NCBI RefSeq assembly: GCF_008271745.1
Contig: NZ_VKKZ01000022.1
Coordinates: 186,001 to 250,000 of the forward strand
Direction: 5' to 3'
Source: Rufibacter glacialis
GTDB lineage: Bacteria; Bacteroidota; Bacteroidia; Cytophagales; Hymenobacteraceae
DNA: 64,000 nucleotides
This document shows positions 34,194 to 63,244 of this stretch, one piece after another; position 1 is the stretch's first letter, and each line of letters begins with the position of its first letter. The position numbers were made by a program, and so were the translations under genes. The notes under the pieces are model-generated. The model was not told the DNA's origin. It searched no databases and worked only from the letters and a program-made list of their open reading frames with translations.

Positions 34194-37100
34194 GTGGAGT
34201 TTACAGGGGAAAGGTTTGTTCCTACAACAGAATTATTAACCGATGAAATCGGGATAGAGCATTTACACCGATATGAGACTTGTGTCGGGTTTGTCAACAA
34301 TAAAGATGTACTAGATATTGCGTGCGGCGTAGGCTATGGCTCAGCGCTATTTGCCAAAAATGCTCGCACAGTTATTGGAATCGATATTGACTCAATTAGC
34401 ATAGAATACGCTACCCAAACCTATAGCAGTCATAACACTAATCTTCGTTTTTTAACAGGGTCTGTTGCTAAAATTCCACTCCCAGATAATTCCATTGATG
34501 TTGTGGTTTCTTTTGAAACCATTGAACACGTAGATGAACCCACGCAGCATGCCTTTCTGCAGGAAGTAAAAAGAGTTTTAAGGAATAATGGAAGTTTAAT
34601 TATTTCTACACCAGATAGAGCGAATTATTCTGAACGGTACAATTATGTCAATGAATTCCATATTAAGGAATTTAATGCAGAAGAGTTTCAGCGTTTTTTA
34701 AGTCGATATTTTACTAACATAGAATTTTTTAGTCAAGGCTTTGAAATTATCAGTGCTATTACTCCAGTCGGTTCTACCCAGCTAAATCAGGTTAAAGTAT
34801 GTGATTTGGACTTACACTCACCATCAAGTTCAAAGAAGTATCTACTCTCTGTTTGTAGTAATATTGTACAACAAGAGGCACTGCAGTTGTCTTCAGTTGT
34901 ATTTAATACTGGCAAGGATTACCTGGAAATCACAGATACAATTGTCGAGAAAGAAGCACACATCTTAGAGTTAGGAGCATGGGGTAAATCGCTTGACAAG
35001 CATATAGCAGAAAAGGATAACCTTATACTTTCAATGCAAGAGGAACTGGAGCTGAAGGCAGCCTATGTGCTGGCATTGCAGTCGGAGAATCAAAAAAAGT
35101 CTTTAGAGTTAAGCAATGCGAAGGCAGCCAATGACCTTCAACTTGAAAAACTAACCGAACTGGGGAAAAGCATTCTACAACTACAAGAAGGAATACAGAA
35201 TGCTACTTCAAAAAACACATCTTTACAACAAGAATTAGAAGATAAAGACAATATAATAACGTCTCAAAAGCAGAAATTACACAGCCTATATAACCAGATA
35301 GACAATTTAAATGGAAGATTAAATGAAATTTATGTTTCAGAAGGCTGGAAGCTACTAAGTCTTTACTATGGGGTAAAAGGGAGGTTACTCAAAGAAGACA
35401 CTAAAAGGTACAAACTTGTCAAGAAGGTAGTGAATAAACTTAGAGGTAAGACTGAGAGTTCCTCCAGAATTATGGCTTCAACTAACACTACCGAATTATC
35501 GGCCCCAACTTCTTTGCTCAAAGAGCCTGATGTTGTCTCCTATGATCCCATCACGTTGCCAAAATACGCCCAACCATTAGTGTCCATAATTATTCCAGTT
35601 TATAATGCTTGGGAAATGAATTATAGGTGCATTAAGGCTATTCAGAGAAACTCCTTAGGGGTAAGCTATGAGGTGATCATTGGGGATGACTGCTCCACAG
35701 ATGAGACGAAGGAGATTGATTCTTACATAGAAAACCTCGTTTCAGTACGCAACGAGGTGAATTTAGGTTTCTTGCAGAATTGTAACCATGCAGCCACATT
35801 TGCCAAAGGCAAGTACTTGATTTTCCTCAATAATGATACTGAGGTAAAAGAAGGCTGGCTGACGGCATTAACAGACCTAATGGAACGTGATATTACCATT
35901 GGGTTGGCTGGCTCTAAACTTATCTACCCAAATGGGAGATTGCAAGAAGCAGGTGGCATAATCTGGGATGATGCTTCTGGCTGGAATTATGGCCATAAAC
36001 AAGATCCAGATGCGCCTGAATTCAACTATGTGAAGGAGGTTGACTATGTTTCTGGAGCCAGTATTATTATCAGGTCTGAATTATGGAAGGAACTTGGGGG
36101 ATTTGATATTAGATATACTCCGGCCTATTGTGAGGATTCAGACTTGGCTTTTGCCATTAGAAAGAAAGGTTTCAAAGTAGTGTATCAGCCTTTATCTGAG
36201 GTGATTCATTATGAAGGGTATTCACATGGTAATGACCGAGAGCAAAGTGCAATTAGTTCTATCAAGGAATATCAAAAAATAAATAATACTAAGTTTTTTG
36301 AAAAGTGGATACTGGTCTTGCAGAAAGATCAATTCCCAAATGCTGAGAATGTATTCTGGGCGCGCGATAGAAGTAAGGGGAAGAAGACCATATTAATGAT
36401 TGACCACTACGTGCCCCAGTTTGATAAAGATGCTGGTTCAAGAACCACTTTTGGTTACTTAGAGCTCCTCGTGAACATGGGGTTCAATGTAAAGTTCTTA
36501 GGAGACAATTTCTATCAGCATGAACCTTACACCACAGTACTTCAGCAAATGAGTATTGAAGTATTGTATGGTCCTTGGTACCGAGACAATTGGCAACAGT
36601 GGTTTAAAGATAATAGTGATAAATTTGATTACGTTTATTTGAATAGGCCTCATATCTCCATCAAGTATATTGAATTCATCAAACAACATTCAAAAGCCTT
36701 GATTTTATATTATGGCCATGATCTTCATTACCTGCGTGAGCAGAAAAGATATGAACTGGAGAAGGATCCTTCTATTCTAAAAGGAGCCAATAAATGGAAA
36801 GAAACAGAGACATACCTTTTTGACCATAGTGATGTAATTCTAACTCCCAGCGAAGAAGAAAAGAAAATTATTGGTGCTTTGAACCCCAACTACAATGTAC
36901 AGGTCATAAGACCTTTTATTTACAATACCCTAAATGAACCTGTTGTTGACTTTGCATCAAGAAAAGACATATTATTTGTAGGAGGCTTTGGGCACATGCC
37001 CAATGTGGATGGAGTAATATGGTTTGTAAAAGAGGTATGGCCTTTGGTGAAGCAACAAATACCAGATGCGAAATTCATCATAATTGGCTCTAACCCTCCA

Positions 37101-37487
37101 GAGCAGGTAAAACAGCTAGCTAATGAAGATGTCATCTTTAAGGGCTTTGTAAGCGATGAAGAGTTAGAGCGCACCTACAAGGAGGTAAAGTTAGTTGTAG
37201 TGCCACTACGATATGGAGCAGGAGTAAAAGGTAAATTGGTGGAAGCTATGCACTATGGAGTTCCTCTAGTAACTACATCTGAAGGAATAGATGGATTACC
37301 AGGGGATGTGTCTTTTATTGTACCTGCTAATAATCCTGTACAGCTTTCTGAACAAGTAATAGAATATTATTTATCTAATGAAAAGCTTGTTAAGCTTAGT
37401 AATCTTGAAACAAATTATATCAGGGAATACTTTTTCAAGGATGCAGCTAAAGAAGTGCTTAAAGATATATTAACCATGGCTACTTAA
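34194..37487 (+). CDS. Methyltransferase / coiled coil / dual glycosyltransferase fusion
   Basis: 1097 residues starting at GTG 34194, which gives the family-typical MEFTGERFVP. Order: class I SAM methyltransferase (about 1-220; motif I DIACGVGYG at 41-49, VIGIDID at 61-67, FETIEHV acidic loop); coiled coil (about 250-375); a family 2 glycosyltransferase (from about 461, PLVSIIIPVYNA, with the DxD-like LNNDTEV near 546 and the ED motif YCEDSDLAFA); then a family 4-type module (from about 727, KKTILMIDHYVPQFDKDAG, with VKGKLVEAMHYGVPLV as donor site). Cytosolic, probably membrane-peripheral. It could add two sugars and methylate a sugar or chain end. A methyltransferase plus coiled coil in an ABC-export locus recalls the E. 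coli O9a chain terminator WbdD, but that protein lacks these glycosyltransferases. Confidence 0.88.
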   Translation: MEFTGERFVPTTELLTDEIGIEHLHRYETCVGFVNNKDVLDIACGVGYGSALFAKNARTVIGIDIDSISIEYATQTYSSHNTNLRFLTGSVAKIPLPDNSIDVVVSFETIEHVDEPTQHAFLQEVKRVLRNNGSLIISTPDRANYSERYNYVNEFHIKEFNAEEFQRFLSRYFTNIEFFSQGFEIISAITPVGSTQLNQVKVCDLDLHSPSSSKKYLLSVCSNIVQQEALQLSSVVFNTGKDYLEITDTIVEKEAHILELGAWGKSLDKHIAEKDNLILSMQEELELKAAYVLALQSENQKKSLELSNAKAANDLQLEKLTELGKSILQLQEGIQNATSKNTSLQQELEDKDNIITSQKQKLHSLYNQIDNLNGRLNEIYVSEGWKLLSLYYGVKGRLLKEDTKRYKLVKKVVNKLRGKTESSSRIMASTNTTELSAPTSLLKEPDVVSYDPITLPKYAQPLVSIIIPVYNAWEMNYRCIKAIQRNSLGVSYEVIIGDDCSTDETKEIDSYIENLVSVRNEVNLGFLQNCNHAATFAKGKYLIFLNNDTEVKEGWLTALTDLMERDITIGLAGSKLIYPNGRLQEAGGIIWDDASGWNYGHKQDPDAPEFNYVKEVDYVSGASIIIRSELWKELGGFDIRYTPAYCEDSDLAFAIRKKGFKVVYQPLSEVIHYEGYSHGNDREQSAISSIKEYQKINNTKFFEKWILVLQKDQFPNAENVFWARDRSKGKKTILMIDHYVPQFDKDAGSRTTFGYLELLVNMGFNVKFLGDNFYQHEPYTTVLQQMSIEVLYGPWYRDNWQQWFKDNSDKFDYVYLNRPHISIKYIEFIKQHSKALILYYGHDLHYLREQKRYELEKDPSILKGANKWKETETYLFDHSDVILTPSEEEKKIIGALNPNYNVQVIRPFIYNTLNEPVVDFASRKDILFVGGFGHMPNVDGVIWFVKEVWPLVKQQIPDAKFIIIGSNPPEQVKQLANEDVIFKGFVSDEELERTYKEVKLVVVPLRYGAGVKGKLVEAMHYGVPLVTTSEGIDGLPGDVSFIVPANNPVQLSEQVIEYYLSNEKLVKLSNLETNYIREYFFKDAAKEVLKDILTMAT

Positions 37488-37634: not shown

Positions 37635-40600
37635 ATGTTAGTTTTTGTTTTAATGTATTCCCAGAAGAATTTAAAAGACGTTTTAAAAAGAGGAGAAAAC
37701 AATTTTGATATACTAAGATTGTTTGCGGCCTTAGCTGTTATAATAGGGCATTCCTATTCCATTTCACCTGAACCTCCCTATCAAGATATAGTACTTAATT
37801 TTCTGCATTTTGACTATTCTGGTTCATTAGCAGTAAAGTTTTTTTTCTTTTTAAGTGGCTTATTGGTGACAAATAGCATTATAGCAAAACCAGATCCATT
37901 TAGCTTTCTATTAAAGAGAGCATTGCGGATTTTTCCTGGACTGCTTGTTTGTTTATTGATCTCAGTATTCATGATTGGGCCTTTGTTTACGCATTTGCCT
38001 TTAATTGAATACTTCTCAATGTCAGAAACTTGGAGGTATATAAGCGATAACCTTTTCTTATACAATATCCGGTGGAAATTATCAGGTGTTTTTACAGAGA
38101 GCAAGTTTGGTCTGAACGGATCACTATGGACTCTCTCTTATGAAATTTTGTGCTATTTATATTTAGCCGTTTTTTATGGTTTAGGATTTCTTAGGAACAA
38201 AGTAAATTCAAATATCTTCTTTACTATTATTATTGGTGTATCATTCTTTGCTCCATTATATCTACCTGGCTTCTTCTCGCAGAACCCAGAAGCACATTTA
38301 CTGCCTGGTTGCTTTAGTATTGGTGCTCTATTTGCTGTCAACAAAGAAAATATACAAGTAGGGATTCCCTACTCCATTTTGTTCCTGTTGCTTATTATTC
38401 TGCTCAAGGATTCAATTGTTTTTCAATTTGTATTCTATATAGCATTGTTCTATATGACAGTTGTTGTTGCTTCATTGCCCTATGTTGTACAAAAAATAAA
38501 GCTTCCATTTGATGCATCTTTTGGGGTGTATATTTATGGCTTTGTAATTCAACAATGTCTTCATGCTGTTTTTCCAGAAATGGGAGTCCATAGCCATCAG
38601 GTTATTTCATCATTATTAGCCATTGGGTTTGGGGTATTTTCATGGCAATTTGTAGAAAAGAGGTTTATTAAGCTTGGTAATGAGATAAGGGTAACCGATT
38701 TTATAAATTTTATAAACAAAAAATCTAAAGTTCAAATTGAAAACATACCACAAACTCAACAAATCTTTTTTAATGATAGAGTTTTAGGAATTGATATAAA
38801 GAAACTCAAATCTTCTAAATTTATATTTTTGATATCTTTTACATTAGTAGCGGCAGTTATTCACGCTCTTGTGTTAAAGTTTGTCTTTCCTGGTTATTAT
38901 AGCCCATTATATCCACTTCATTCGGATTATTACATACCTGCAGCTGTAGCCAACTCAAGCTTGGACGTTTATTCTTTTTCTGGATTGTTAACTTGGCCAA
39001 GACCGGTTCATATAACATTCATGAAAATAATAGGATACACAGGAATACAAGGAAGTATTGCTTGTGTTATTGCTTTAGTATGTATTAATACAGCTTTGGG
39101 TGCTCTTTTACTTAAATACATATTCAAGATTCCAATTACCAAGTTGTTTTTGCTATTCTTTATACTGTACTGCTTTCTGTTGTTTTCTCAACCCTATTTC
39201 TATATATTTTATGCTCAAGATATAGGTTCTCAGTTATCATACTTTTTTCTACTAATTGGAGCCCTTGTATATTTTTTTAAGTATGAAGATTCAATAACCT
39301 TTGCAAATATAAGTCTATTTGTATTTTGTTTCTTGGCATTTTTGAGTAAAGAAACTTATGGATTAGTAGGGTTATCATCAGCTTTTCTTTGGTTTATTTA
39401 TTACCGGAGAAAACATGCATTTAATGCTTTCATTCCAATGATTGCAACTGGTAGTGCTTTGGTAATTGCATTTGCTATTAATATTCTAGTAAAATCATCA
39501 TTCATTAATCCTGACGCAGAAGTAAACTCAGATTACCACATAAGTTTAAATCCTATGTTGGTGATTCCGGAGTGGCTTAGGTATGCAAATGAATCAATTA
39601 ACATTGTTAACATTATAGTAGCGATATTGATTCTATTCCTGGTAATCAAATCAAAAAACTCTAATCGAATAAAACTACTGTATTTATTAGCAGGATGTAT
39701 AATAGCAACTGGTTTGTCATGGGTGCCTAATGCTATTCTGCCAAATCATCATTTCAAAGGTTACTCCTTCAATGGTGCATATTTGTTTTACTTGCCTTTG
39801 TTAATTTTACCTGTAGTTCTTTTTGAAAAAGATAAAGCTAAAGGTTTTTCGATTGCTGTTGTTGTACTGTGTCTTCTAAGCCCCGTATTCAATAAAAATA
39901 AATACAGCGATTTAGATAATACTTGGGTTCTGATTCAGGAAGGTACCCAGCGAAACCTATTAAAAAGTCTTGATAAGCAGATAGGAAGATTAGAAGCTTC
40001 TAGCACTCCTCAAAAGATAATTATTCAAGGCATTTCCTTTCCATTTCATCCATTTTCACATCCAGAAGCATTAAGAGTTTTCTCCAATGCTAAATTTGCT
40101 CATTTTGACGTAGTGAATACTAACCCTTCATTCCAAAATGGAGTTAGAACAGATCTTGTTAAATTTATTAGCCCTTCTGATACTTTGAAAACAAGATATG
40201 ATGAAAGATGGCAATTTGATGATCAAGGCAATTTGATTGCAGCTATAGATTTAGAAGCCGAAAAGGTTTTCTTAAAGCCGAAGGTTAGAGAAAGTGCTTT
40301 TATAGTAACCTCAGAAAGTTTACCACTTCATAAAACTGAAGGTTTTTATAATCTTGAAGGTAATCTTAGGTGGACGAATGGTGAAGCTTCCATTGGCCTA
40401 GATTCCACAATTTCAGTCAAAGATAGTGTGATATTAAAGCTGGATACATTTATGCCTCCTATTTGCAAAAATGTTAGCCCTGAGTTGAAAATTGTTGGTA
40501 GCAATAATAAAATTTATAAACCTAGAATGTTTATGAGAAGTGGAGATACTTTTTATTTCTTATTTCTAATGAACAATTCTGATTCAATCAAAAAAATTGA

Positions 40601-40685
40601 TATTACTTCTGAACGTATAGATGCATCACCTGATTTGCGCATTTTATCCTTCCCTTTTGTAAGGTTAGAGGTTATAAAAAAGTAG
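37635..40685 (+). CDS. Acyltransferase-3 family protein fused to a second membrane domain and a C-terminal ectodomain
   Basis: 1016 residues. Residues about 20-350 are an OafA-type acyltransferase 3 domain: RGENNFDILRLFAALAVIIGHS holds the conserved R and catalytic-type H, and GSLWTLSYEILCYL is the second landmark. Residues about 390-760 form a further set of about 10 transmembrane helices (for example AQDIGSQLSYFFLLIGALVYFF), with a luminal H-P-rich opening that resembles GT-C fold membrane proteins, though no GT-C motif was confirmed. The last about 250 residues are soluble and beta-rich. It probably O-acylates the glycan at the inner membrane. Start may instead be the ATG at 37659. Very AT-rich. 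Confidence 0.8.
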   Translation: MLVFVLMYSQKNLKDVLKRGENNFDILRLFAALAVIIGHSYSISPEPPYQDIVLNFLHFDYSGSLAVKFFFFLSGLLVTNSIIAKPDPFSFLLKRALRIFPGLLVCLLISVFMIGPLFTHLPLIEYFSMSETWRYISDNLFLYNIRWKLSGVFTESKFGLNGSLWTLSYEILCYLYLAVFYGLGFLRNKVNSNIFFTIIIGVSFFAPLYLPGFFSQNPEAHLLPGCFSIGALFAVNKENIQVGIPYSILFLLLIILLKDSIVFQFVFYIALFYMTVVVASLPYVVQKIKLPFDASFGVYIYGFVIQQCLHAVFPEMGVHSHQVISSLLAIGFGVFSWQFVEKRFIKLGNEIRVTDFINFINKKSKVQIENIPQTQQIFFNDRVLGIDIKKLKSSKFIFLISFTLVAAVIHALVLKFVFPGYYSPLYPLHSDYYIPAAVANSSLDVYSFSGLLTWPRPVHITFMKIIGYTGIQGSIACVIALVCINTALGALLLKYIFKIPITKLFLLFFILYCFLLFSQPYFYIFYAQDIGSQLSYFFLLIGALVYFFKYEDSITFANISLFVFCFLAFLSKETYGLVGLSSAFLWFIYYRRKHAFNAFIPMIATGSALVIAFAINILVKSSFINPDAEVNSDYHISLNPMLVIPEWLRYANESINIVNIIVAILILFLVIKSKNSNRIKLLYLLAGCIIATGLSWVPNAILPNHHFKGYSFNGAYLFYLPLLILPVVLFEKDKAKGFSIAVVVLCLLSPVFNKNKYSDLDNTWVLIQEGTQRNLLKSLDKQIGRLEASSTPQKIIIQGISFPFHPFSHPEALRVFSNAKFAHFDVVNTNPSFQNGVRTDLVKFISPSDTLKTRYDERWQFDDQGNLIAAIDLEAEKVFLKPKVRESAFIVTSESLPLHKTEGFYNLEGNLRWTNGEASIGLDSTISVKDSVILKLDTFMPPICKNVSPELKIVGSNNKIYKPRMFMRSGDTFYFLFLMNNSDSIKKIDITSERIDASPDLRILSFPFVRLEVIKK

Positions 40686-40851: not shown

Positions 40852-41265
40852 GTGGCTACTTTAAATGAATGCGGTATAATTGATTTTCCTAAGATACTTG
40901 ATCCAAGGGGTAATCTTTCATTTTTGGAGGAGAACAAGCATTTTCCATTTCACATTGAAAGGACCTACTGGATCTATGATGTACCTGGGGGAGAAAAGAG
41001 AGGTGGCCATTCTTTCAAAACTAATCAGGAGGTCATTATTGCTCTATCCGGCAGTTTTGACGTTGTCTTGGATGACGGGGTCAATAAAAAGGTGTTTTCC
41101 CTTAACCGTTCTTATTATGGCCTGTATATTCCCCAACTAATTTGGAGGCATATGGAAAATTTCTCGACGAACTCTCTTGCATTGATGGTTTCATCTACAG
41201 TGTTTGCCGAGTCAGATTACGAACGCGATTACGGGGTGTTTTTAAATACAAAAAATGGTAAATAG
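40852..41265 (+). CDS. FdtA/QdtA-like cupin, divergent copy
   Basis: 137-residue cupin of the WxcM C-terminal/FdtA family, which convert dTDP-4-keto-6-deoxyglucose to its 3-keto isomer. The GTG at 40852 is the only start that keeps the full N-terminal strand. The core IYDVPGGEKRGGHSFKTNQE ... ALSGSFDVVLDDG ... RSYYGLYIPQLIWRHMENF is clear. Where the next gene has HAHK, this one has H53-S-F-K: the second histidine, part of the active site in characterised FdtA/QdtA, is replaced by Phe55. It may therefore be a different isomerase or a non-catalytic partner. Overlaps the next gene by 11 bases, so the two are probably co-translated. Confidence 0.88.
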   Translation: MATLNECGIIDFPKILDPRGNLSFLEENKHFPFHIERTYWIYDVPGGEKRGGHSFKTNQEVIIALSGSFDVVLDDGVNKKVFSLNRSYYGLYIPQLIWRHMENFSTNSLALMVSSTVFAESDYERDYGVFLNTKNGK

Positions 41266-41674
41266 GGGGCTGGGTATCTATGGCTGCTCAGTGATCGAGC
41301 TGCAGAGAATCAATTTCCGGGCAGGTAATATAACGCCTGTGCATAACTCGGTGGACGTTCCGTTCGATGTGAAACGTATCTTCTATCTGTATGACATACC
41401 CGGGGGAGAATCAAGGGGGGCACACGCCCATAAGGAGTGTCACCAGTTCCTGGTTGCAGCAAGTGGTAGTTTCGAGGTTCTTCTGGACGATGGGTATAAC
41501 AAGAAAATTGTAAGCTTGAACAGACCCTATTACGGGTTGCACATTCCGCCCATGATTTGGGCCTCCGAGATAAACTTCTCCTCCGGGGCCATCTGCTTGG
41601 TCTTAGCTTCCCACACCTATGCTGAAGCTGACTACATAAGAGACTATTCTGATTTTAAGTTAAGGCTGGCATGA
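41255..41674 (+). CDS. FdtA/QdtA-type dTDP-4-keto-6-deoxyglucose 3,4-ketoisomerase
   Basis: 139-residue cupin, second of a tandem pair. It keeps the full active-site signature DIPGGESRGAHAHKECHQF, with H57 and H59, and the strand SFEVLLDDGYNKKIVSLNRPYYG. Known relatives move the keto group from C4 to C3 of dTDP-4-keto-6-deoxyglucose, with products leading to dTDP-Fuc3NAc (FdtA) or dTDP-Qui3NAc (QdtA); the sequence alone does not decide which. The substrate needs RmlA and RmlB, which are not encoded in the window. The ATG at 41255 overlaps the previous gene by 11 bases and the stop overlaps the next start by four. Confidence 0.9.
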   Translation: MVNRGLGIYGCSVIELQRINFRAGNITPVHNSVDVPFDVKRIFYLYDIPGGESRGAHAHKECHQFLVAASGSFEVLLDDGYNKKIVSLNRPYYGLHIPPMIWASEINFSSGAICLVLASHTYAEADYIRDYSDFKLRLA

Positions 41675-42192
41675 TGGAGTTGAAGCTGGAAAATTTTACG
41701 ATGAGGCTGGTAGAGGAGGAGGATTCTGAGTTTATCGTGCAGTTGAGGGACAATAAGTACCTCAGCGGTACCTCCCCTGACGTTGAGGAGCAGAAGGCTT
41801 GGGTTAGGAGTTATAAGGAGAGGGAGGCCGAAAGGAGGGAGTATTACTTCATTGCCGAGGACCTCAAGGGTAAGAGACTTGGCCTGGCAAGGATCTACAA
41901 CTTCAAGGGCGAAAGTTTCGAATTGGGAAGCTGGGTCTTCATGAAGGGTATCGACGAGTCTATTCCGGTGCTGGTGGACATTGCGGTACGGGATTTTGCC
42001 TATGACCGGTTAGGCTTCCGGGTCTGCAGGTTCACGGTAAGCAAGGAAAACAAGGCGGTGCTCCGGTACCACCGGATGTATAAGCCTGAGTTGGTCAGGG
42101 AGGATGAAGAAAACTATTACTTTGAGTTAGAGCTCAGTGCTTACAAGAACAGTAAAAGAAAGATCTTAAACATAATCGAAAATGGAAGCTAA
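41671..42192 (+). CDS. GNAT-family N-acyltransferase
   Basis: 173 residues of the RimJ/RimL-like acetyltransferase fold: LENFTMRLVEEEDSEFIVQL at the N-terminus, the LGLARIYNFKGESFELGSWVF core strands, and LVDIAVRDFAYDRLGFRVCRFTVSKENKAVLRYHRMYKP with the typical acceptor and cofactor loops. From its place between a ketoisomerase, an acyl carrier protein, KAS III and an aminotransferase, it is best explained as the N-acyltransferase of the 3-amino sugar; other such enzymes in this pathway are LbH-fold (FdtC), so the GNAT type and a possible acyl-ACP donor are notable. Start ATG overlaps the previous stop by four bases. Confidence 0.85.
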   Translation: MMELKLENFTMRLVEEEDSEFIVQLRDNKYLSGTSPDVEEQKAWVRSYKEREAERREYYFIAEDLKGKRLGLARIYNFKGESFELGSWVFMKGIDESIPVLVDIAVRDFAYDRLGFRVCRFTVSKENKAVLRYHRMYKPELVREDEENYYFELELSAYKNSKRKILNIIENGS

Positions 42193-42415
42193 AGCCTTTA
42201 TAGACAATTTCCGGGAACAGTTCATTGACGCAGATGAGATCACGGTAGGAATGGATACACGGTTCCGGGACCTTCCTACCTGGGATTCCCTCACGGGTAT
42301 GTCGATTCTGGTGATGATACAGGATGACTACCAAGTATCCTTCACTGCCGAGGAATTGAAGCAATGTAACACGGTACAGGAGGTTTATGACAAGGTAAGC
42401 CTAAAGCAAGGGTAA
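42182..42415 (+). CDS. Acyl carrier protein
   Basis: 77-residue carrier with the phosphopantetheine attachment Ser36 in LPTWDSLTGMSILVMI, followed by helix II and the FTAEELKQCNTVQEVYDKV tail typical of small carrier proteins. It differs from the housekeeping AcpP style (no DSLDTVELVM) and resembles carriers of specialised pathways. It overlaps the GNAT gene by 11 bases, and its TAA-ATG junction touches the KAS III gene (stop ends on the first base of the next start), so it must be made together with them. It probably holds the acyl group placed on the amino sugar. Confidence 0.92.
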   Translation: MEAKAFIDNFREQFIDADEITVGMDTRFRDLPTWDSLTGMSILVMIQDDYQVSFTAEELKQCNTVQEVYDKVSLKQG

Positions 42416-43425
42416 TGGGTAGTGCCAGAGCAAAGTATATCGAATACTATCTCCCTGACCACGTCCTGGACAATCAGCAAATCGCTGCCGAGCACCCGGA
42501 ATGGACTATTGAGAAGATAGCCGCCAAAACGGGTATCTTCCGCCGCCATATTGCCGCCAAGGATGAATTCGCCAGCGATATGGCTGTCAGGGCCGCCCTG
42601 GATCTGTTCTCAGCCCATGGTATTGATCCACAGAGCATAGATTTCATATTGCTTTGCACCCAGAGCCCCGACTATTTCCTCCCCACAACCGCGTGCCTGG
42701 TGCAGGATAGGTTGGGGTTAAGCAAACAGTGCGGCGCCCTTGACTTCAATTTGGGCTGTTCGGGGTACATCTATGGGCTTGGTATGGCCAAAGGTCTTAT
42801 TGCCACAAAACAGGCCAAGAACGTTCTACTGATAACCTCTGAAACATACACTAAGTTTATTCACCCCTCTGACAAGAGCAATAAAACCCTGTTCGGGGAT
42901 GCGGCTGCTGCCACACTAGTAACAGGTGAAGAAGACGGTGAATCTTTGGGTGGCGAGATTCTTGAGTTTGTGTATGGAACAGACGGATCCGGCGCCAGCT
43001 CATTGATTGTGAAAAATGGCGGCGCTAGGACGAACTTCGTGCGGAACAACTTGGTTGAGGGCCTAGAACCTGATGGGGATGACCTCTACATGGATGGTGG
43101 GGCTATCTTTGAGTTCACCGCATTTAATGTTCCCAAACTGGTAAAAGACACCTTAGTTAAGCATGAGTTGTCAATGGAGGAAATTGACCTATTTGTTTTT
43201 CATCAAGCTAACCAGTTCATGCTGAACACCATCCGGAAAAGGGCGGGTATTCCCGAAGAAAAATTCTTTGTTTACCTGGAGGATTGCGGGAATACGGTCT
43301 CCTCCACCATCCCGATCGCACTTAGGGAGGCAATGAGACAGGGCAGAATTAAAAAAGGCGACAAAGTGCTGTTGGCCGGGTTCGGGGTGGGCCTTTCCAT
43401 GGGCGCAACTATTTTACAGTTTTAA
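42415..43425 (+). CDS. 3-oxoacyl-ACP synthase III-like (KAS III/FabH family)
   Basis: 336-residue thiolase-fold condensing enzyme. The catalytic triad of KAS III is complete: C115 ([12 protein letters not shown]), H263 ([11 protein letters not shown]) and N293 ([12 protein letters not shown]). FabH starts acyl chains by condensing acetyl-CoA with malonyl-ACP. Within a sugar cluster it would prepare a short 3-oxoacyl-ACP (later reduced elsewhere, since no reductase is encoded here), or act as an acyl-transfer enzyme as some KAS III-like proteins do. It follows the carrier protein gene with a one-base overlap and is 11 bases from the aminotransferase gene. Its composition is higher in GC than the rest of the locus. 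Confidence 0.93.
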
Positions 43426-43436
43426 CTTATTCAAAT

Positions 43437-44543
43437 ATGCAAATACCTTTTTTATCCTTTAATTCCCAGAATGCATTGATCCGGGATCAGGTACTTGAGG
43501 CAATGCAGGGCGTATTTGACTCCAAATGGTACATCTTAGGCGACTACGTTAAGCAATTTGAGAGGGAATACGCCATTTTCAATGATACCGCTAGTTGCAT
43601 AGGGGTGGCCAATGGGTTGGATGCGCTGCAGATTTCGTTGAAGGTGCTAGGGATAGGCGAGGGGGATGAGGTGATTGTCCCGTCAAACACATACATCGCC
43701 ACTTGGCTGGCCGTGTCATACGTAGGGGCCACCTTGGTGCCCGTAGAACCTAATATAGCTACCTATAATATTGACCCAGCTAAAATAGAAGCTGCTATTA
43801 CTTCCAGAACCAAAGCCATAATTCCTGTCCATTTATATGGCCAGGCGTGTGAAATGGACGCTATAATGGCAATCTCAAAGAAGCACAATCTGTATGTTGT
43901 GGAGGACAACGCACAGGCACAGGGGGCCTTGTATAACGGAAGGAAGACCGGGAGTTTTGGTCATGCCAATGGGACCAGCTTCTACCCTGGGAAAAATCTT
44001 GGAGCCTTGGGAGATGCGGGCGCCATCACCACCAATGATGAGGAGATATCTAAGAAAATTACTTCTTTCCGAAATTATGGGTCTCATAAGAAGTATTACA
44101 ACGAGGTCAAGGGCGTTAACTCTAGGTTGGATGAGCTTCAGGCGGCCATATTAAGTGTGAAATTACCTTATTTGCTTGAGTGGACTGAACAGAGAAAAAA
44201 CTTGGCAGACCATTATAATAGATGCTTGGCTGACGTGCATCAACTTAATACACCCGTTTTAACCAATGGTGCAACACACGTCTACCATATCTATATGGTA
44301 CGTACAACAAAGCGGGACGAATTACAACAATTTCTTCAAAGGAAAGGGATAGGCACGGTCATCCATTACCCGGTGCCACCCCACCTGCAGGAAGCTTACA
44401 AATATTTAGGATACAAGAAAGGAGACTTCCCAATAGCAGAAGATATAGCAAATACCTGCCTGAGCTTGCCCTTGTGGCCTGGTATGACCAAAGAGGAGGT
44501 AGAAACAGTATGTAGTAGTATTGAAGAATTCTTTCATGACTAA
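43437..44543 (+). CDS. DegT/DnrJ/EryC1/StrS sugar aminotransferase (FdtB/QdtB-like)
   Basis: 368-residue PLP enzyme that transaminates a 3-keto sugar nucleotide from glutamate. The Schiff-base lysine is K186 in [16 protein letters not shown], the PLP-ring aspartate is D157 ([11 protein letters not shown]), and the substrate loop [25 protein letters not shown] and the [18 protein letters not shown] segment are those of the FdtB/QdtB group. Together with the ketoisomerase upstream, it would give dTDP-3-amino-3,6-dideoxyhexose. The stop overlaps the next gene's ATG at 44536 by eight bases. Confidence 0.92.
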
Positions 44544-45462
44544 GCTTTCCATAGTAATTCCTTGTTACTTCAATGAACAGAATATACCTGCCACAACAAA
44601 AGAATTAATATCTAGTGAAAGCCTTTTTGATGAAGAGGTTGAGTTTGAGTATATTTTTGTTGATGACGGTTCAGGAGATAATACCCTCCAAGAACTACTA
44701 AAATTTAAGAAACTGTATCCAAGTAAGGTTAAGGTGTTAAAACTGGCAGGGAATGTTGGTTCCTATAATGCGGTTGTAGCAGGCATGGAGGTAGCAAGCG
44801 GTGATTGTACGGTTATCATTGCAGCAGATTTGCAAGACCCACCTGAATTGATGGTTCAAATGTATAACTATTGGAAGCAGGGATTCAAGTTGGTAATTGG
44901 GAACAGAATGGATAGGGAAGAATCGCCTGTTCAGAAATTCTTCTCCAATACCTTCCATTCCATTATGAAAAAAATCGCCCTTAAGAATATCCCTGATGGA
45001 GGCTTTGACTATGTTTTCTTTGATAGACAGATAAGGGAAGAGGTTGTTAAGATGAAGGAGCGTAATAGCAACATCTTTTATCTTATGACTTGGATGGGGT
45101 ACGCCTACATAAACATACCCTATGTAAGGAAGAAGCGAGAGATTGGAAAGTCAAGGTGGACTCTACAGAAAAAGATTAAGCTTTTAATCGACTCATTACT
45201 CTCATTTTCATTTTTCCCTATTCGAGCTATCTCTGTAATCGGAATAGGGCTTGGGTTAGGGGCTTTCATTTACGGGTTATACATTATGATCTCTCGTTTT
45301 ATGGGCTTTATAGATGTAGAGGGTTGGTCTGCGCTTATGGTAGTGGTATTGTTTGTGTCTTCCTTTCAAATGATAGCTATAGGAATATTAGGAGAATACG
45401 TTTGGCGCGGTCTTGATGCAAGTAGAGAAAGGCCTCTATTCGTAGTTGAAAAAGTTTACTAA
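44536..45462 (+). CDS. Family 2 glycosyltransferase, polyprenyl-phosphate type with membrane anchor
   Basis: 308 residues from the ATG at 44536, which overlaps the aminotransferase stop; a frame start at 44521 would add five residues without value. The N-terminal GT-A domain begins [18 protein letters not shown], with [11 protein letters not shown] and [17 protein letters not shown], the QDPP motif being typical of DPM1/GtrB-like enzymes that put a sugar on polyprenyl phosphate. The C-terminal [28 protein letters not shown] and two transmembrane helices are the usual membrane anchor. It may build a lipid-linked sugar donor for periplasmic modification of the glycan, or transfer the 3-amino sugar. 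Confidence 0.88.
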
Positions 45463-45565
45463 ACGTCAAGGCTAGTCATGATGCTTGCTTAAGGCTTTTT
45501 TTCATTTAAGGAAAGCTTAGTTTAACTGATGGATATTGAAATTTTATTTATCTTCCAATTTCTTA

Positions 45566-46300
45566 ATGAAAGGGGCACCCATATTTTCTATAATGGTACA
45601 TTGCTTTTATGGAGTGGATAGCTTTCAGGAACAGATACATCCTTTGAATGAAAAGTATCCTTTTCAATTATTCCTTAACTCAGTGATTCATAATGGGATG
45701 TGCAATGATACTGCAATCACAGATTTCGATTTCATACCCAGCCAAAATGTGGTCTTTAGAAGGTCAACCAACGTAGGGAAAGACATTGGAGGTAAGTTTG
45801 TTTTATTAGATACTTACTTAAGATTAGGTATAAAAACCAAATACATAGTTTTTATCCATGACAAAAAAAGTCCTCACTTAGTTAATGGAAGCAAGTGGTT
45901 TGATAATCTTATTAGAATTGTTGAACCTACTTTAGTTGATGAGATTATAAACTCTTTTGAAAGAAACAATAAGATTGGCATAATCGCATCAAGAGGATCT
46001 GTAATGAAGGAAGCTAGTTCGCCAGGGTACTTTGAAAGCAATAATGGTAGGTTACTTTCTCAGTTACAAAAGAAATATGATGTTTACCCAATAGACTTAG
46101 CCTATGTGGCCGGCACTATGTTTTGGGTAAGATCTGACATCATAACAAAGTTTTTCCAGCGTTTTCATCCTCTGGAGATAAGGGCAAGTTTAGAAGAAGG
46201 GAATATATTAGACAATGAGGCAGGTACAATTACGCATTCTTGGGAAAGGCTTTTATCGTGGATCGTCACCTCTCAAGGGTACCACATCAAAGAAGTATGA
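45566..46300 (+). CDS. RgpF-like (rhamnan synthesis F family) protein
   Basis: 244 residues from the ATG at 45566; the frame extends to a TTG at 45536. The segment VVFRRSTNVGKDIGGKFVLL and YIVFIHDKKSPHLVNGSKW is the landmark of the RgpF/PF05045 family, found in proteins that make rhamnose-containing cell-wall polysaccharides, followed by YVAGTMFWVRSDIITKFF. These are glycosyltransferases or their helpers; the acceptor is unknown. Its TGA stop shares bases with the next gene's ATG (ATGA), so the two are translationally coupled. Confidence 0.82.
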   Translation: MKGAPIFSIMVHCFYGVDSFQEQIHPLNEKYPFQLFLNSVIHNGMCNDTAITDFDFIPSQNVVFRRSTNVGKDIGGKFVLLDTYLRLGIKTKYIVFIHDKKSPHLVNGSKWFDNLIRIVEPTLVDEIINSFERNNKIGIIASRGSVMKEASSPGYFESNNGRLLSQLQKKYDVYPIDLAYVAGTMFWVRSDIITKFFQRFHPLEIRASLEEGNILDNEAGTITHSWERLLSWIVTSQGYHIKEV

Positions 46301-47130
46301 AACTCATTGATGACCTTTGCATCATTCTGAAAGATCCATCAGAACTGGTGGATTATGGACTAGGCTCTTTATCCCAAGATCTATATGTATCATTTTTGAT
46401 CGATCAATACAATTTAGATAAAATTAAAGAACTGTATAAGATCATTAGTGAGAGCCAGTTAGATGTCAAGTTTTCCCTTACTCTTAAAATAGGGTCTGAG
46501 AGCCTCCTGAAGCATTCACCTTTTGATATTGCTGCTTTCTTCTTCCTTTCAAAATACAAGTTGGCAAGTGGTAACCCTGTAGTCAATATATTGTCAATTA
46601 ATGATAAGGAATATGATGTAACTTTTAGTTTCTTAGATAAATTATCAAAAGAACAAGGATTTGGTAGAGTCATCTGTAATCGTTTAACTTTGTATAACTA
46701 CATTGACTTTACAGACATCAGGAATTTAGGTAGTGAAAAATTCGATGAGATTCAGAAAATTATATCTGGACGAGATTGGTTAAATGAGAGCAACTTCTTT
46801 TTAGGAGCACAACTATATACTTTAAAGGATTTGCCAGAATTTATTCATGAGGTGGAAAGACAAGAAGATAATATAGTTAAGAGTAACCCTCAACTATTTA
46901 AGCTATTTGTTTTGAAGGTGAATTTGCAAAAGGAGGTTGAAAACCTTCAAAGCCAAGTCCAATACCTTACTGAGTGTCTATGTAATGAAAAAACTTATAA
47001 TAAATTTTTAAAGGAGAACCATCAGGGGAAACTATTGCAAGAGTATTATGACCACGAGTATGAGATTCTTCCAACCTGGTTTAAGCGAGTGGGCCATGTC
47101 ATCAAATATATTACAGGAAAAAGAGCGTAA
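46297..47130 (+). CDS. Unknown protein, coupled to the RgpF-like gene
   Basis: 277 residues from the ATG at 46297, which overlaps the RgpF-like stop as ATGA; the frame is open from 46240 but that start would overlap by 61 bases. I recognise no family. Residues about 1-200 are mixed helix, with Leu and Ile rich segments (SLSQDLYVSFLIDQYNLDKI, SPFDIAAFFFLSKYKLASG). Residues about 205-245 are a short coiled coil (NLQKEVENLQSQVQYLTE), and the tail EYEILPTWFKRVGHVIKYITGKRA is basic and amphipathic. The coil-then-basic-tail end is like that of the 33.7 kb protein. It probably serves the RgpF-like protein, as a partner or docking factor. Confidence 0.75.
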   Translation: MKLIDDLCIILKDPSELVDYGLGSLSQDLYVSFLIDQYNLDKIKELYKIISESQLDVKFSLTLKIGSESLLKHSPFDIAAFFFLSKYKLASGNPVVNILSINDKEYDVTFSFLDKLSKEQGFGRVICNRLTLYNYIDFTDIRNLGSEKFDEIQKIISGRDWLNESNFFLGAQLYTLKDLPEFIHEVERQEDNIVKSNPQLFKLFVLKVNLQKEVENLQSQVQYLTECLCNEKTYNKFLKENHQGKLLQEYYDHEYEILPTWFKRVGHVIKYITGKRA

Positions 47131-50934: not shown

Positions 50935-51969
50935 ATGTTAATTCGCGCAAAGGCCCCTTTAAGACTAGGTTTAGCAGGAGGTGGTACAGATGTAAGCCCT
51001 TATAGTGATACCTATGGAGGGGCAATTTTAAATGCTACCATTAATAAGTTCGCTTATGCTACCCTGATCCCGCTAACCACTCCTCAGGTTATTTTTAAGT
51101 GTTTTGATATTGATAAGAGCATCGTTTTTGATAACGTGAATTATTTTGCAAATGAAAACGACGATTTTAGGTTGATTAAAGGGATTCATAATAGGATCAA
51201 ATCTGAATTCAATATTGAAACGCCCCTTTATTATCAACTAGAAACCTTTGTTGATGCACCTCCAGGATCAGGATTAGGATCATCTTCCACTTTGGTGGTA
51301 GCCATTGTGGCGGCATTCGCTGAATGGTTAGGTCTTCCTTTGGGAGAATATGACATTGCCCACTTGGCCTATAGCATTGAGCGGGAAGATTTGGCATTGT
51401 CGGGTGGAAAACAAGACCAATATGCAGCAACCTTTGGGGGGTTCAATTTTATGGAATTCCATGCAGACCGGGTGGTCGTGAATCCTCTCCGGATCAAAGA
51501 AGAGTATATCCATGAACTGGAGTTCTCTCTGATCCAATACTATACTGGTACATCCCGGTTGTCTTCTAAGATCATTGATGCGCAGGTTAAGAACGTGCAT
51601 AATAATTCAGCTAAATCAATTGAAGCCATGCATTCTCTAAAAGCGCTAGCCTTCAATATGAAAGAAGCATTATTAAGAGGAAAATTAGATGAGATAGGAG
51701 AATTGCTTCATGAAAGCTGGATTTCTAAGAAGAAAATGGCAGATGAAATCTCTAATCCGGTGGTAGATGAGATTTATGACACTGCTATTAAGAATGGAGC
51801 CATTGGAGGCAAGATATCTGGTGCCGGGGGCGGGGGGTACATGATGTTCTATGTTAGAAATAGCTCGCTATATCCTTTGATTAATAAGCTAAATCAATTT
51901 GGTGGCCAAGTAGAAAGGGTGAATTTTTATAGTCAAGGAGCTATTTCCTGGAAGACAAAATATATTTAG
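50935..51969 (+). CDS. hddA: D-glycero-alpha-D-manno-heptose 7-phosphate kinase (HddA-like GHMP kinase)
   Basis: 344-residue GHMP kinase that phosphorylates heptose 7-phosphate at C1 to give the 1,7-bisphosphate, second step of GDP-heptose synthesis. The N-terminal RAKAPLRLGLAGGGTDVSPY, the glycine-rich ATP loop PPGSGLGSSS (109-118) and the C-terminal GAIGGKISGAGGGGYMMFY loop are those of HddA and the related fucokinase-type group. The position next to gmhA, the GDP-transferase and gmhB supports the heptose assignment over other GHMP kinases. ATG at 50935. Two bases separate it from gmhA. Confidence 0.92.
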   Translation: MLIRAKAPLRLGLAGGGTDVSPYSDTYGGAILNATINKFAYATLIPLTTPQVIFKCFDIDKSIVFDNVNYFANENDDFRLIKGIHNRIKSEFNIETPLYYQLETFVDAPPGSGLGSSSTLVVAIVAAFAEWLGLPLGEYDIAHLAYSIEREDLALSGGKQDQYAATFGGFNFMEFHADRVVVNPLRIKEEYIHELEFSLIQYYTGTSRLSSKIIDAQVKNVHNNSAKSIEAMHSLKALAFNMKEALLRGKLDEIGELLHESWISKKKMADEISNPVVDEIYDTAIKNGAIGGKISGAGGGGYMMFYVRNSSLYPLINKLNQFGGQVERVNFYSQGAISWKTKYI

Positions 51970-51970
51970 T

Positions 51971-52561
51971 ATGCAAGACTTTATCTCATCAAAAATTCAA
52001 GAGAGTATAGATGTAAAAGCCCAACTGCTGAAAGACAAGAGATTATTAGAAACCATAGCTAAAGTTTCGGATTATATTTCTTCAGCTTTTAAAGCAGATA
52101 AAAAAGTGTTTTTCTGCGGAAATGGAGGGAGTGCTGCGGATGCCCAACATTTAGCTGCTGAATTTTCTGGAAGGTTCTATCTGGATCGTGCACCCTTGTT
52201 TGCTGAAGCGCTACATGTGAATACTTCCTATTTAACGGCAGTAGCGAATGATTATTCCTATGATGAAGTTTACTCAAGATTGATTAAAGCAAAAGGAAGA
52301 AATGGAGACGTATTAATAGGGATTTCTACCTCAGGAAACTCTAAAAACATTATTAATGCTTTTAGGGAGGCGAAGAAGAATAATGTACTTACAGTTGCCC
52401 TAACTGGAGAAAGTGGGGGAGCAATGAGAAATGAAGTTGATTATCTCTTGAATGTTCCATCTAATGATACTCCCCGGATTCAAGAATCTCATATCCTCAT
52501 AGGCCATATTATCTGTGAAATTGTGGAGAGGGAACTATTTGTTATAAATAATGACAAATGA
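51971..52561 (+). CDS. gmhA: Phosphoheptose isomerase
   Basis: 196-residue SIS-domain enzyme that isomerises sedoheptulose 7-phosphate to D-glycero-D-manno-heptose 7-phosphate, first step of both heptose pathways. Signature CGNGGSAADAQHLAAEFSGR (49-68), with H60 and E64 as active-site residues, then GISTSGNSKNI for phosphate binding and HILIGHIICEIVE near the end. Length and motifs are normal. The gene overlaps the start of the nucleotidyltransferase by 11 bases, so these are co-translated. Confidence 0.94.
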   Translation: MQDFISSKIQESIDVKAQLLKDKRLLETIAKVSDYISSAFKADKKVFFCGNGGSAADAQHLAAEFSGRFYLDRAPLFAEALHVNTSYLTAVANDYSYDEVYSRLIKAKGRNGDVLIGISTSGNSKNIINAFREAKKNNVLTVALTGESGGAMRNEVDYLLNVPSNDTPRIQESHILIGHIICEIVERELFVINNDK

Positions 52562-53267
52562 GGCCATTGTCTTAGCCGGAGGCTTAGGTACCCGGCTAAG
52601 ATCTGTTATTCAAGATGTTCCTAAACCAATGGCCGAGGTAGCAGGTAGGCCATTTCTTGATTATATTCTTTATTCCCTTAAAAAGAATAACATCAAGAAG
52701 GTGGTTTTTGCCGTTAGTCATAAGTATGAAGTAATCCAAGACTATTATAAGGACAGCAGAAACAGTTTTGGGATTGAGATAAGTTATAGCATTGAAAAAG
52801 AACTTTTAGGGACAGGCGGAGCCATATATGAAGCCTCGCAACAAATCCTGGGAGATAGCTTCTTCATATTAAACGGAGACACTTATTTTGAAATAGATCT
52901 ATCCCAACTGCATACTTTTGCGAAGGAAACCTCGGCAGATTTAGCCTTGGCACTAAAAATGATGCCTCACTCTGACAGGTATGGTAGCGTAGTTTGCGCC
53001 AACGACCATAAAATAGTATCCTTTAAAGAAAAAGAACCTGGTAAAAAGCAGGACCTTCTAATAAATGGGGGAATCTATCACATGAATAAAAGAGTAATAG
53101 AAATTTTATCCATGCCATCAAAATTTTCTTTTGAAATTGATTTCCTGCAAAGAGATCTCAACAAAATAAGTGCCTATGGAAAGCTTTTTGATGAGACCTT
53201 TATAGATATTGGAATACCAGAAGATTATGAATATGCCCAATCCCTTTTGAAGAATGTCATTCCCTAA
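52551..53267 (+). CDS. hddC: D-glycero-alpha-D-manno-heptose 1-phosphate guanylyltransferase (HddC-like)
   Basis: 238-residue nucleotidyltransferase that transfers GMP to heptose 1-phosphate, giving GDP-D-glycero-alpha-D-manno-heptose. The NTP-binding motif is VLAGGLGTRLRSVIQDVPKP (7-26, with the catalytic Arg and Lys), then AGRPFLDYIL, LNGDTYFEIDL as the metal site and LLINGGIYHMNK as the sugar-binding region. The guanylyl specificity rests on the neighbours (HddA, GmhA, GmhB); by sequence alone it could use another nucleotide. Overlaps gmhA by 11 and the phosphatase by 14 bases. Confidence 0.9.
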   Translation: MTNEAIVLAGGLGTRLRSVIQDVPKPMAEVAGRPFLDYILYSLKKNNIKKVVFAVSHKYEVIQDYYKDSRNSFGIEISYSIEKELLGTGGAIYEASQQILGDSFFILNGDTYFEIDLSQLHTFAKETSADLALALKMMPHSDRYGSVVCANDHKIVSFKEKEPGKKQDLLINGGIYHMNKRVIEILSMPSKFSFEIDFLQRDLNKISAYGKLFDETFIDIGIPEDYEYAQSLLKNVIP

Positions 53268-53799
53268 GCTGTTTGATACTCTGTTTCTGGATAGGGATGG
53301 AGTAATTAATCTTAAAATAGAGAACGGGTATGTGACTAATTTTTCAGCCATTGAAATTCTACCTGGTATCTCAGAATTTTTAGCTGCGGCTCAAGAAAAA
53401 TTTGAAAGGATTATTGTTGTAACTAACCAGCGTTGCGTTGGAAGAGGGATAATTTCAACAGATGATTTAATACAAATCAATAACAAGATCAATGAACTGA
53501 CGGGTAATTTAATCACCCAATTCTTTTTTTGCCCTCATTTAGAGGAAGATGGCTGCACTTGCAGGAAACCTAAAGAGGGGCTTTTCCTTAAAGCTGCAGA
53601 TACTTTTAAGATTGATTTTTCTTCCTCTTGGATGGTAGGTGACTCAGAAACTGATTTAATTCCAGCAAAAAAATTAGGCTTAAAAACAGTTTTTATAGGG
53701 GGAATAAGTGAGTTCGCTGATGTAAAGGTTGATAATACCCTTGAGTTGCTTTCCTTCTTCGCTCATATGTATACTAGTGAAGTCTTACCTTCAAATTAG
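53254..53799 (+). CDS. gmhB: D-glycero-manno-heptose 1,7-bisphosphate 7-phosphatase (GmhB-like HAD)
   Basis: 181-residue HAD phosphatase that removes the 7-phosphate before nucleotidyl transfer. Motif I FLDRDGVINL (D13 nucleophile, D15), VVTNQRCVGRG as motif II, the four-residue zinc site C93, H95, C101, C103 (FFCPHLEEDGCTCRKPKEG) that marks GmhB-type histidinol-phosphatase relatives, and MVGDSETDLIPAKK as motif IV. It is the last gene of the run and overlaps hddC by 14 bases. A 75-base gap separates it from the converging ligase gene. Confidence 0.92.
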   Translation: MSFPKLFDTLFLDRDGVINLKIENGYVTNFSAIEILPGISEFLAAAQEKFERIIVVTNQRCVGRGIISTDDLIQINNKINELTGNLITQFFFCPHLEEDGCTCRKPKEGLFLKAADTFKIDFSSSWMVGDSETDLIPAKKLGLKTVFIGGISEFADVKVDNTLELLSFFAHMYTSEVLPSN

Positions 53800-62128: not shown

Positions 62129-63244
62129 TCACAGATGCAAGCCCAGACCCCATTCAATCACGTTGGCGTGGCCGTCATGGGCCATGAGCAACGCACTCGC
62201 CGACAGGTGCCTGGAGACCATGAACTTGAAGCCGTACCGCTGGTAATAGTCAGGGAAGAGGCCGTGGGGTTGGTACAGGTAGCGCCCAAAATGGAAGACC
62301 ACCGCGAGGCGGCTCAGGTGCAGTTCATGGCCCAGAAACACCCCCGCTGATTCTTTCTCCAAAAACCCTTCTGGGATATCCATGCCCTTGTTCAGGTATT
62401 CTTCCCCAATGGCCGTGTCATGGATCGCATCTGCGCCCAACAGCAGGGAGTTGGTATGGCTAAGCCGTTTGCTGGCGTACGCCGACATCATGTACACCGG
62501 GTGCTTGAAGTCATCCCGCAGAACCTCTTTCACCCCGCCTGCTACGAGCACATTAAATCGGAGGGACTTGTCAAGGGCGAGAATCAAGGAATCAGGAAAG
62601 GCCACGGGCACGGCCATTCTGGGTTGGTACCGCACCCCCACGCCCAACAGGGGCATGTTCATGCCGTTGTTGGACTGGTTCAGGCTTCCGTTAGAGAAGT
62701 GCCTAAATGCGAAGATGACATTCAGGAACCATTTTTGGGTAAGGGGGTGCTCGTAGCGCAGGTTCCCCCGCAGGGAGAACGTGATGGGGCTGCCAATGGC
62801 TTTGTTGTTCTCGTTGGAGGTGGAGTTGTAGTACCGGGTAGTATAGACTAATCCCGTGCCCAGGTTATAGCGCAGGTTTCCTTTGCCAACCTTCGTGATG
62901 AAGCCATCCAGGTAAGAGGTGCCGGTCACCGATTCGCCAAGTTCCTGGGGTACCCCATAGTTAAAGTAAGAGAGCGCGAAGCCAATCTGCGGGAGCTTGT
63001 AGCGCTGTTCCCAGTGGCGCTTGCCCAGTGTGTGCTTGTTGGCGTACAGTTCCACCCCGTGCAAGTTGGCATAGTTTAGCAGCGAAAGCCCAGACCGGTA
63101 CCGGAAGTAGGCACCATAATACCCGTTTACGCCATAGGACCAGGGTTCTTTCATTTCTGGAGTTTTTTCCTGGGCCAGTACAAAAGCCGGCCAGGAGAAA
63201 GAGAGCACCAGGAAAAGGAAAAGAACTTTAAGGGGTTGGGACAT
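62129..63244 (-). CDS. PagL-like acyloxyacyl hydrolase / lipid A 3-O-deacylase family outer-membrane protein
   Basis: 371 residues from the ATG at 63244 (MSQPLKVLFLFLVLSFSWPAFVLAQ is a Sec signal); a start at 63271 would add nine residues. The rest is a beta-barrel-like alternation. The family signature is FAFRHFSNGSLNQSNNGMN, matching the PagL H-x-S-N ... N-x-G motif, with H182 and S184 as the likely catalytic pair. PagL removes the 3-O acyl chain of lipid A in the outer membrane. At 371 residues it is about twice as long as P. aeruginosa PagL, with an N-terminal extension (residues 25-150), so substrate could differ. Stands alone in the window. Confidence 0.85.
   Translation of the reverse strand: MSQPLKVLFLFLVLSFSWPAFVLAQEKTPEMKEPWSYGVNGYYGAYFRYRSGLSLLNYANLHGVELYANKHTLGKRHWEQRYKLPQIGFALSYFNYGVPQELGESVTGTSYLDGFITKVGKGNLRYNLGTGLVYTTRYYNSTSNENNKAIGSPITFSLRGNLRYEHPLTQKWFLNVIFAFRHFSNGSLNQSNNGMNMPLLGVGVRYQPRMAVPVAFPDSLILALDKSLRFNVLVAGGVKEVLRDDFKHPVYMMSAYASKRLSHTNSLLLGADAIHDTAIGEEYLNKGMDIPEGFLEKESAGVFLGHELHLSRLAVVFHFGRYLYQPHGLFPDYYQRYGFKFMVSRHLSASALLMAHDGHANVIEWGLGLHL

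Follow-up and report, generated by a model that had tools for sequence, protein, structure and literature searches.

A six-gene module of Rufibacter glacialis with two unequal FdtA-type cupins and its own acyl carrier protein, predicted to make an N-acylated 3-amino sugar

In the genome of Rufibacter glacialis, a module of six genes occupies positions 40852-44543 of a 64,000-nucleotide (nt) stretch of DNA (assembly GCF_008271745.1, contig NZ_VKKZ01000022.1, positions 186,001 to 250,000), which was analysed as a whole and is called the window here. We consider it probable that the module makes a dTDP-3-(N-acylamino)-3,6-dideoxyhexose, through isomerisation of a keto sugar by a hetero-dimeric pair of cupins, amination at C3, and acylation by a GNAT acyltransferase that uses an acyl group built on an acyl carrier protein (ACP). 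The cupin pair is the unexpected part of the finding. The six genes and the gene that follows them are listed below (aa, amino acids; KAS III, 3-ketoacyl-ACP synthase III).

40852-41265, plus strand: cupin 1, FdtA family (PF05523), 137 aa, GTG start, motif RGGHSFK, conserved partner clade
41255-41674, plus strand: cupin 2, 3,4-ketoisomerase candidate, 139 aa, motif RGAHAHK with intact HAH
41671-42192, plus strand: FdhC-like GNAT acyltransferase, 173 aa, Acetyltransf_3
42182-42415, plus strand: ACP, 77 aa, PP-binding, Ser36 in a DSL motif
42415-43425, plus strand: KAS III, 336 aa, C115-H263-N293
43437-44543, plus strand: DegT/DnrJ/EryC1/StrS aminotransferase, 368 aa, best solved relative QdtB
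44521-45462, plus strand: family-2 glycosyltransferase, matching the PgfS and ArnC models, both below their cut-offs

Gene order, protein families and proposed pathway

The six open reading frames (ORFs) overlap by 11, 4, 11 and 1 nt, with a single 11-nt gap, and the aminotransferase gene overlaps that of the family-2 glycosyltransferase by 23 nt, which indicates that the unit extends past the six genes. All six proteins scored above the Pfam cut-offs: cupin 1 and cupin 2 matched PF05523 (FdtA) with 158.2 and 174.5 bits (cut-off 23), the GNAT matched Acetyltransf_3 with 34.5 bits (cut-off 25.4), the ACP matched PP-binding with 30.1 bits (cut-off 20.8), KAS III matched ACP_syn_III and ACP_syn_III_C with 77.6 and 113.7 bits, and the aminotransferase matched DegT_DnrJ_EryC1 with 399.3 bits. 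For the listed NCBIfam models of ACPs, the module's ACP scored under the cut-offs. A preliminary description of this DNA had reported six overlapping or touching genes in this order, an intact Cys-His-Asn triad in KAS III and Ser36 in the ACP; the ORFs and Pfam families bear out the first point and the residue positions the other two. Its assignment of the aminotransferase to the FdtB/QdtB type also held, the closest solved relative among DegT-family enzymes being QdtB (3frk; E = 1.1e-124). Its observation is thereby confirmed, and its interpretation, that a short ACP-bound acyl chain made by KAS III is moved by the GNAT to the 3-amino group, is partly supported by the evidence given below.

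In the proposed pathway, dTDP-4-keto-6-deoxyglucose would be supplied by an RmlB encoded elsewhere, the cupins would isomerise it to the 3-keto sugar, and the QdtB-like enzyme would aminate C3. KAS III would condense acetyl-CoA with malonyl-ACP to give acetoacetyl-ACP on the module's own ACP, and a reductase encoded elsewhere would most likely convert the acetoacetyl to a 3-hydroxybutanoyl group. The FdhC-like GNAT would then take the acyl group from the ACP, directly or via CoA, and N-acylate the amino sugar, and the finished sugar would pass to the coupled glycosyltransferase (44521-45462), its likely user. The preliminary description had implied that the module lies next to rmlAB. This was not upheld for rmlB, since the sole match above the TIGR01181 cut-off sits on another contig (C20), from which the sugar substrate would come; rmlA was not sought.

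The tandem cupins

The description of the two cupins as FdtA/QdtA-like is correct as to family, and the implied equivalence failed. The HxH motif of FdtA/QdtA ketoisomerases is intact in cupin 2 (RGAHAHK), and its second His is gone from cupin 1 (RGGHSFK). The lost residue aligns with the second His of the HxH pair of FdtA (2pa7), where the printed 2pak sequence has Asn, and we take this His to be catalytic in FdtA-type isomerases. With positions numbered as in the printed 2pa7 chain minus two, the HxH pair is 49 and 51.

With cupin 1 as the query, matches were obtained in 89 of 395 genomes of the phylum, the window's own genome included, and the regions around the matches, all except one weak match, were fetched. 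Together with two loci from the KAS III search described below (L029, L059) and a plasmid cupin (L094), they gave 131 cupins, comprising 30 adjacent same-strand pairs, one pair about 800 bp apart (L138), and 69 unpaired cupins, which served as the control for the pattern. Leaving out L029 and L059, the pair is present in 29 of the 395 genomes, spread over many family codes. Where the start of the second gene could be placed at least roughly, it lay no more than 30 nt past the end of the first gene, or overlapped it, in 25 of 29 pairs. Position 51 was never His in the 31 first cupins (Tyr in 17, Phe in 12, Lys in one and Leu in one) and always His in the 31 second cupins. The unpaired cupins had His there in 67 of 69 cases; the exceptions, L204 and L209, are distant members outside the tree, and the L209 match contains an internal stop. 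The N-terminal residues followed the reverse pattern: Arg15 was found in 31/31 first cupins, 3/31 second cupins and 40/41 unpaired cupins of at least 95 bits, and Asp13 in 31/31, 4/31 and 32/41, respectively. Eight residues (D13, R15, G16, R33, H49, E56, R95 and N103) were invariant among the first cupins.

The first cupins formed a single clade with an SH-aLRT (approximate likelihood-ratio test) support of 96, which was 93 after removal of the motif, the key columns and some rows. No unpaired cupin fell within this clade, and none of its members in the 131-cupin set was seen without a nearby cupin-2 gene. In the free trees the second cupins were not united in a single clade (2 and 3 changes), and one of these trees placed the second cupin of L144 beside the first cupins; a single clade for the second cupins was, however, not rejected by the approximately unbiased test (p-AU 0.63). 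Among plasmids, 31 records matched, of which 15 were listed, at one place each, and hence showed no cupin pair at that sensitivity.

The complementary losses of His51 and Arg15 are best explained by an obligate hetero-dimer with a single composite active site, and, as judged from their sequences, cupins 1 and 2 of the window look like subunits of one such ketoisomerase. Cupin 2 would contribute the catalytic histidines, and cupin 1 would contribute structure and probably the N-terminal Asp-x-Arg. More tentatively, with rather more doubt than confidence, we suggest that in many Bacteroidota the 3,4-ketoisomerase may be an obligate hetero-dimer that arose by one duplication, in which cupin 2 kept the His pair and mostly lost the Asp/Arg, cupin 1 did the reverse, and one composite site works per dimer; the pair would head a cassette able to receive acyltransferases of more than one fold, in some cases accompanied by a dedicated ACP and KAS III. 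If this is true, these two small proteins would be a clear example from nature of how complementary active-site losses convert a homo-dimer into an obligate hetero-dimer.

Two other readings of the pair were weighed. The cupins might be independent isomerases of different product stereochemistry, so that two 3-amino sugars are made, as a Campylobacter jejuni strain reportedly has two isomerases that differ in this way. Both cupins do score high on the FdtA family, and they differ at positions 15 and 95, which presumably set the stereochemistry of the product. Yet the second His is lost in every first cupin, and the first-cupin clade keeps its cupin-2 neighbour, which makes independent action unlikely. 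That cupin 1 is an inactive relic of duplication would account for the missing HxH residue, but the maintenance of one clade beside cupin 2 in 29 genomes, with eight invariant residues, renders this highly improbable. For the favoured hetero-dimer, the product may be either Fuc3N or Qui3N, because cupin 2 has Ala at the positions of both FdtA Arg15 and FdtA His95. As far as a partial search of the literature extends, including the parts of PMC9095892 consulted, we met no account of an FdtA-family cupin pair; absence from print is not claimed.

The window's genome also carries a third FdtA-family cupin (L165, C10:552000-566000), which is unpaired, has an intact HAH and lies about 1 kb from an aminotransferase matching that of the window. 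These two genes perhaps belong to a second 3-amino sugar pathway.

The acyl group and its transfer

The best solved relative of the GNAT was FdhC (5kta), with E = 3.8e-23 and 58 identical residues of 161 aligned (36%). It scored 85 bits against FdhC and 17 bits against PseH, and is accordingly related to FdhC rather than to PseH. FdhC is named, in the parts of PMC4869667 consulted, as the 3-hydroxybutanoyltransferase that makes Fuc3N(R3Hb). The preliminary description had set the module against the acetyl-CoA-dependent FdtC; that contrast was incomplete, since a GNAT sugar acyltransferase, FdhC, was already known. By analogy, transfer of a 3-hydroxybutanoyl group by the GNAT to a dTDP-3-amino sugar is predicted. 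The presence of one KAS III suggests a single condensation and thus a C4 chain, and from the sequences the acyl group would most likely be 3-hydroxybutanoyl.

KAS III shares 26-33% identity with its other matches in its own genome, against 54-61% with the best 80 of at least 520 relatives in public genomes, of which those named are mostly from Bacteroidota. Sixty-four of these 80 loci have 4 kb of sequence on both sides, and neighbours were counted in them within 4 kb of KAS III on the same strand. The labels for ACPs, GNATs, second KAS proteins, hexapeptide and FemAB proteins and short-chain dehydrogenases/reductases (SDRs) came from phmmer with single query proteins, so that distant members are missed; inspection by eye revealed the ACPs of L143 and L137, and reading together with Pfam the GNAT of L036. 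An ACP was detected in 61/64 loci, a second KAS in 42/64 and a GNAT in 1/64. The gene directly before the ACP encodes a GNAT in L036 and L077, a PglD-type protein in L062 and a further hexapeptide protein in L146. These counts make the KAS III/ACP pair a general maker of short acyl groups, of which the acceptor varies.

Several counts weigh against a dedicated N-acyl sugar pathway of the proposed form. An SDR reductase accompanies KAS III in 52/64 loci and the module has none, FdtA-type cupins occur in 2/64 loci only, and an aminotransferase matching that of the window lies within 4 kb in 15/64 loci on the same strand and in 38/64 on either strand; the other neighbour counts hardly change when both strands are considered. 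The preliminary description had stated that ACP and KAS III homologues consistently found away from the aminotransferase would refute it, and on this point the outcome is mixed. The GNAT was matched in only 6/395 genomes of the phylum and 3/390 of the order (own genome counted), so that recurrence cannot confirm the full set. Relatives of the GNAT also occur on ten plasmid records, nine of which were opened, one of these being without annotation. In the stretches opened, six of the eight annotated records (L094, L237, L238, L239, L240 and L242; Rhodobacterales) encode a DegT aminotransferase together with a cupin of the FdtA/QdtA or WxcM-like type and show no annotated ACP or KAS III, and hence the GNAT family may use CoA. 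The GNAT of L240 carries no annotation, and the match covers half of its length; neither cupin nor aminotransferase is present in the L095 stretch, and the L241 match lies at the end of the record.

The plasmid neighbourhoods count in favour of the alternative that the GNAT uses acetyl-CoA or 3-hydroxybutanoyl-CoA, and that the ACP and KAS III serve another acylation. So does an Acyl_transf_3 protein encoded at 37635-40685, which ends 166 nt upstream of the module and could, for example, acylate a sugar hydroxyl. The 11-nt overlap of the GNAT and ACP genes, the contact of KAS III with the ACP, and the varied acyltransferases immediately preceding the ACP in the four loci named above speak for a common function, and we regard separate functions as rather unlikely. 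Within the phylum, locus L236 of genome G499 has a 95-bit GNAT, followed after about 1.1 kb by a tandem pair of cupins, together with a FemAB-like protein and an aminotransferase, and no ACP or KAS III was detected near this GNAT; no cupin was detected near the second GNAT copy of that genome (L235). A weaker match in G460 (L157) stands beside a single cupin and an aminotransferase, and L089, L090, L225 and L226 are weak matches. So the GNAT family accompanies 3-amino sugars and does not require an ACP of its own. Genome G564 has a related GNAT and, some 3 kb away from it, an ACP; as this ACP sits with FkbH-like and MBOAT-like proteins (read by eye), the locus was not counted as support.

The source of reducing activity was also considered. 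It had been noted that no ketoreductase is encoded and that one could be borrowed; in agreement, a Pfam scan of 26 proteins of the window revealed no 3-ketoacyl-ACP reductase, and the 27 SDR matches in the genome indicate that a reductase could come from outside the module. Alternatively, the acyl group may stay unreduced, with the GNAT moving 3-oxobutanoyl (acetoacetyl) from the ACP to give an N-acetoacetyl amino sugar. The module is in this respect like 11 of the 61 ACP-bearing full-flank loci, which show no SDR within 4 kb. However, that count depends on one query protein and a 4-kb limit, the genomic SDR matches could reduce the acyl group, and the named product of FdhC is 3-hydroxybutanoyl, so an unreduced product appears rather unlikely. 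KAS III relatives are known to act as acyltransferases, CerJ being an example, and KAS III might itself transfer the acyl group to the sugar in this manner; with its Cys-His-Asn triad intact and a separate sugar N-acyltransferase in the unit, this is hardly to be expected.

If an ACP-built acyl group is indeed transferred, KAS III and ACP would be a marker of such groups, and non-acetyl N-acyl sugars in the surface glycans of these bacteria would be predictable from gene order.

Recurrence, surroundings and known systems

The preliminary description had called for a survey of the six-gene order, and no second instance of the exact order turned up in the sets searched. Parts of it recur. Among the 29 tandem-cupin loci that were not chosen by KAS III, an aminotransferase of the window's type follows within 6 kb in 25, hexapeptide acyltransferases are present in 18, FemAB-like proteins in six, an FdhC-like GNAT in one (the window) and KAS III in four (the window, L137, L143 and L146); as L129, L133 and L135 end within 3 kb, these counts are lower bounds. 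The two loci found through KAS III carry cupins, a hexapeptide protein, ACP, SDR, KAS III and aminotransferase (L029), and cupins, hexapeptide and FemAB-like proteins, ACP, KAS III and aminotransferase (L059). Tandem cupins are followed by ACP and KAS III in L029, L059, L143 and L146, and are arranged otherwise in L137. The arrangement in the window resembles one version of a kit with exchangeable parts.

Locus L137 has tandem cupins, an ACP-like protein, an SDR, a metallo-beta-lactamase-like protein, KAS III, a methyltransferase and a MaoC/SDR-like fusion (labels partly by eye), and may represent a different acyl system behind the same cupins.

The surrounding genes form a polysaccharide cluster, which includes several glycosyltransferases and heptose-type genes as well as an ABC-2/ABC transporter pair. 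At 50935-53799, genes for a GHMP kinase, a SIS protein, a nucleotidyltransferase and a HAD hydrolase stand consecutively, a row that resembles what we take to be a nucleotide-heptose set. A single chain of 1097 aa encoded at 34194-37487 combines methyltransferase, GT2 and GT4 parts. The two ORFs at 45536-47130 overlap and differ in frame; the match of the first is confined to the C-terminal part of RgpF, and the second matched no Pfam family at the limit used. On the minus strand, 62132-63271 encodes a 380-aa protein with a PagL-like lipid A deacylase domain.

Compared with the QdtA/QdtB and FdtA/FdtB systems, cupin 2 and the aminotransferase are alike, whereas the module gives cupin 2 a partner, cupin 1, from which the second His is missing. 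The fdtA-fdtB-fdhC pathway to dTDP-Fuc3N(3-hydroxybutanoyl) of Hafnia alvei and Escherichia coli O103, as given in the parts of PMC4869667 consulted, has a ketoisomerase, a 3-aminotransferase and an FdhC-like acyltransferase in common with the module, which differs by its two unequal cupins and its own ACP and KAS III; the term "acyl carrier" is nowhere in the main text of that paper. Flagellin glycosylation islands have an ACP and other fatty-acid genes in glycan clusters, and one aminotransferase type there is called FdtB; unlike the module, no KAS III and no FdtA-type cupin are mentioned in the portions of these accounts consulted (PMC4875605, PMC7874193). The nearest precedent that we met in print is wfpC-G of Flavobacterium psychrophilum, in which, according to the parts of PMC6519341 consulted, an ACP (wfpD), two synthases (wfpC and wfpE), a reductase (wfpF) and an acyltransferase (wfpG) are proposed to build and transfer a 3,5-dihydroxyhexanoyl group. 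Both sets combine their own ACP, a 3-ketoacyl-ACP synthase and a sugar N-acyltransferase; the wfp set has two synthases, a reductase within the cluster, a PglD-like transferase and UDP-Qui2NAc4N as acceptor, whereas the module has one synthase, no reductase, a GNAT and presumably a dTDP-3-amino sugar. The idea that a GNAT moves an ACP-built short acyl group is plausible. The FdhC-like GNAT, the regular proximity of ACP and KAS III, and the suitability of a 3-oxo- or 3-hydroxybutanoyl group favour it, and, in view of FdhC and the wfp genes, its fit to known systems makes the module a variation on what is already described and not something new in kind.

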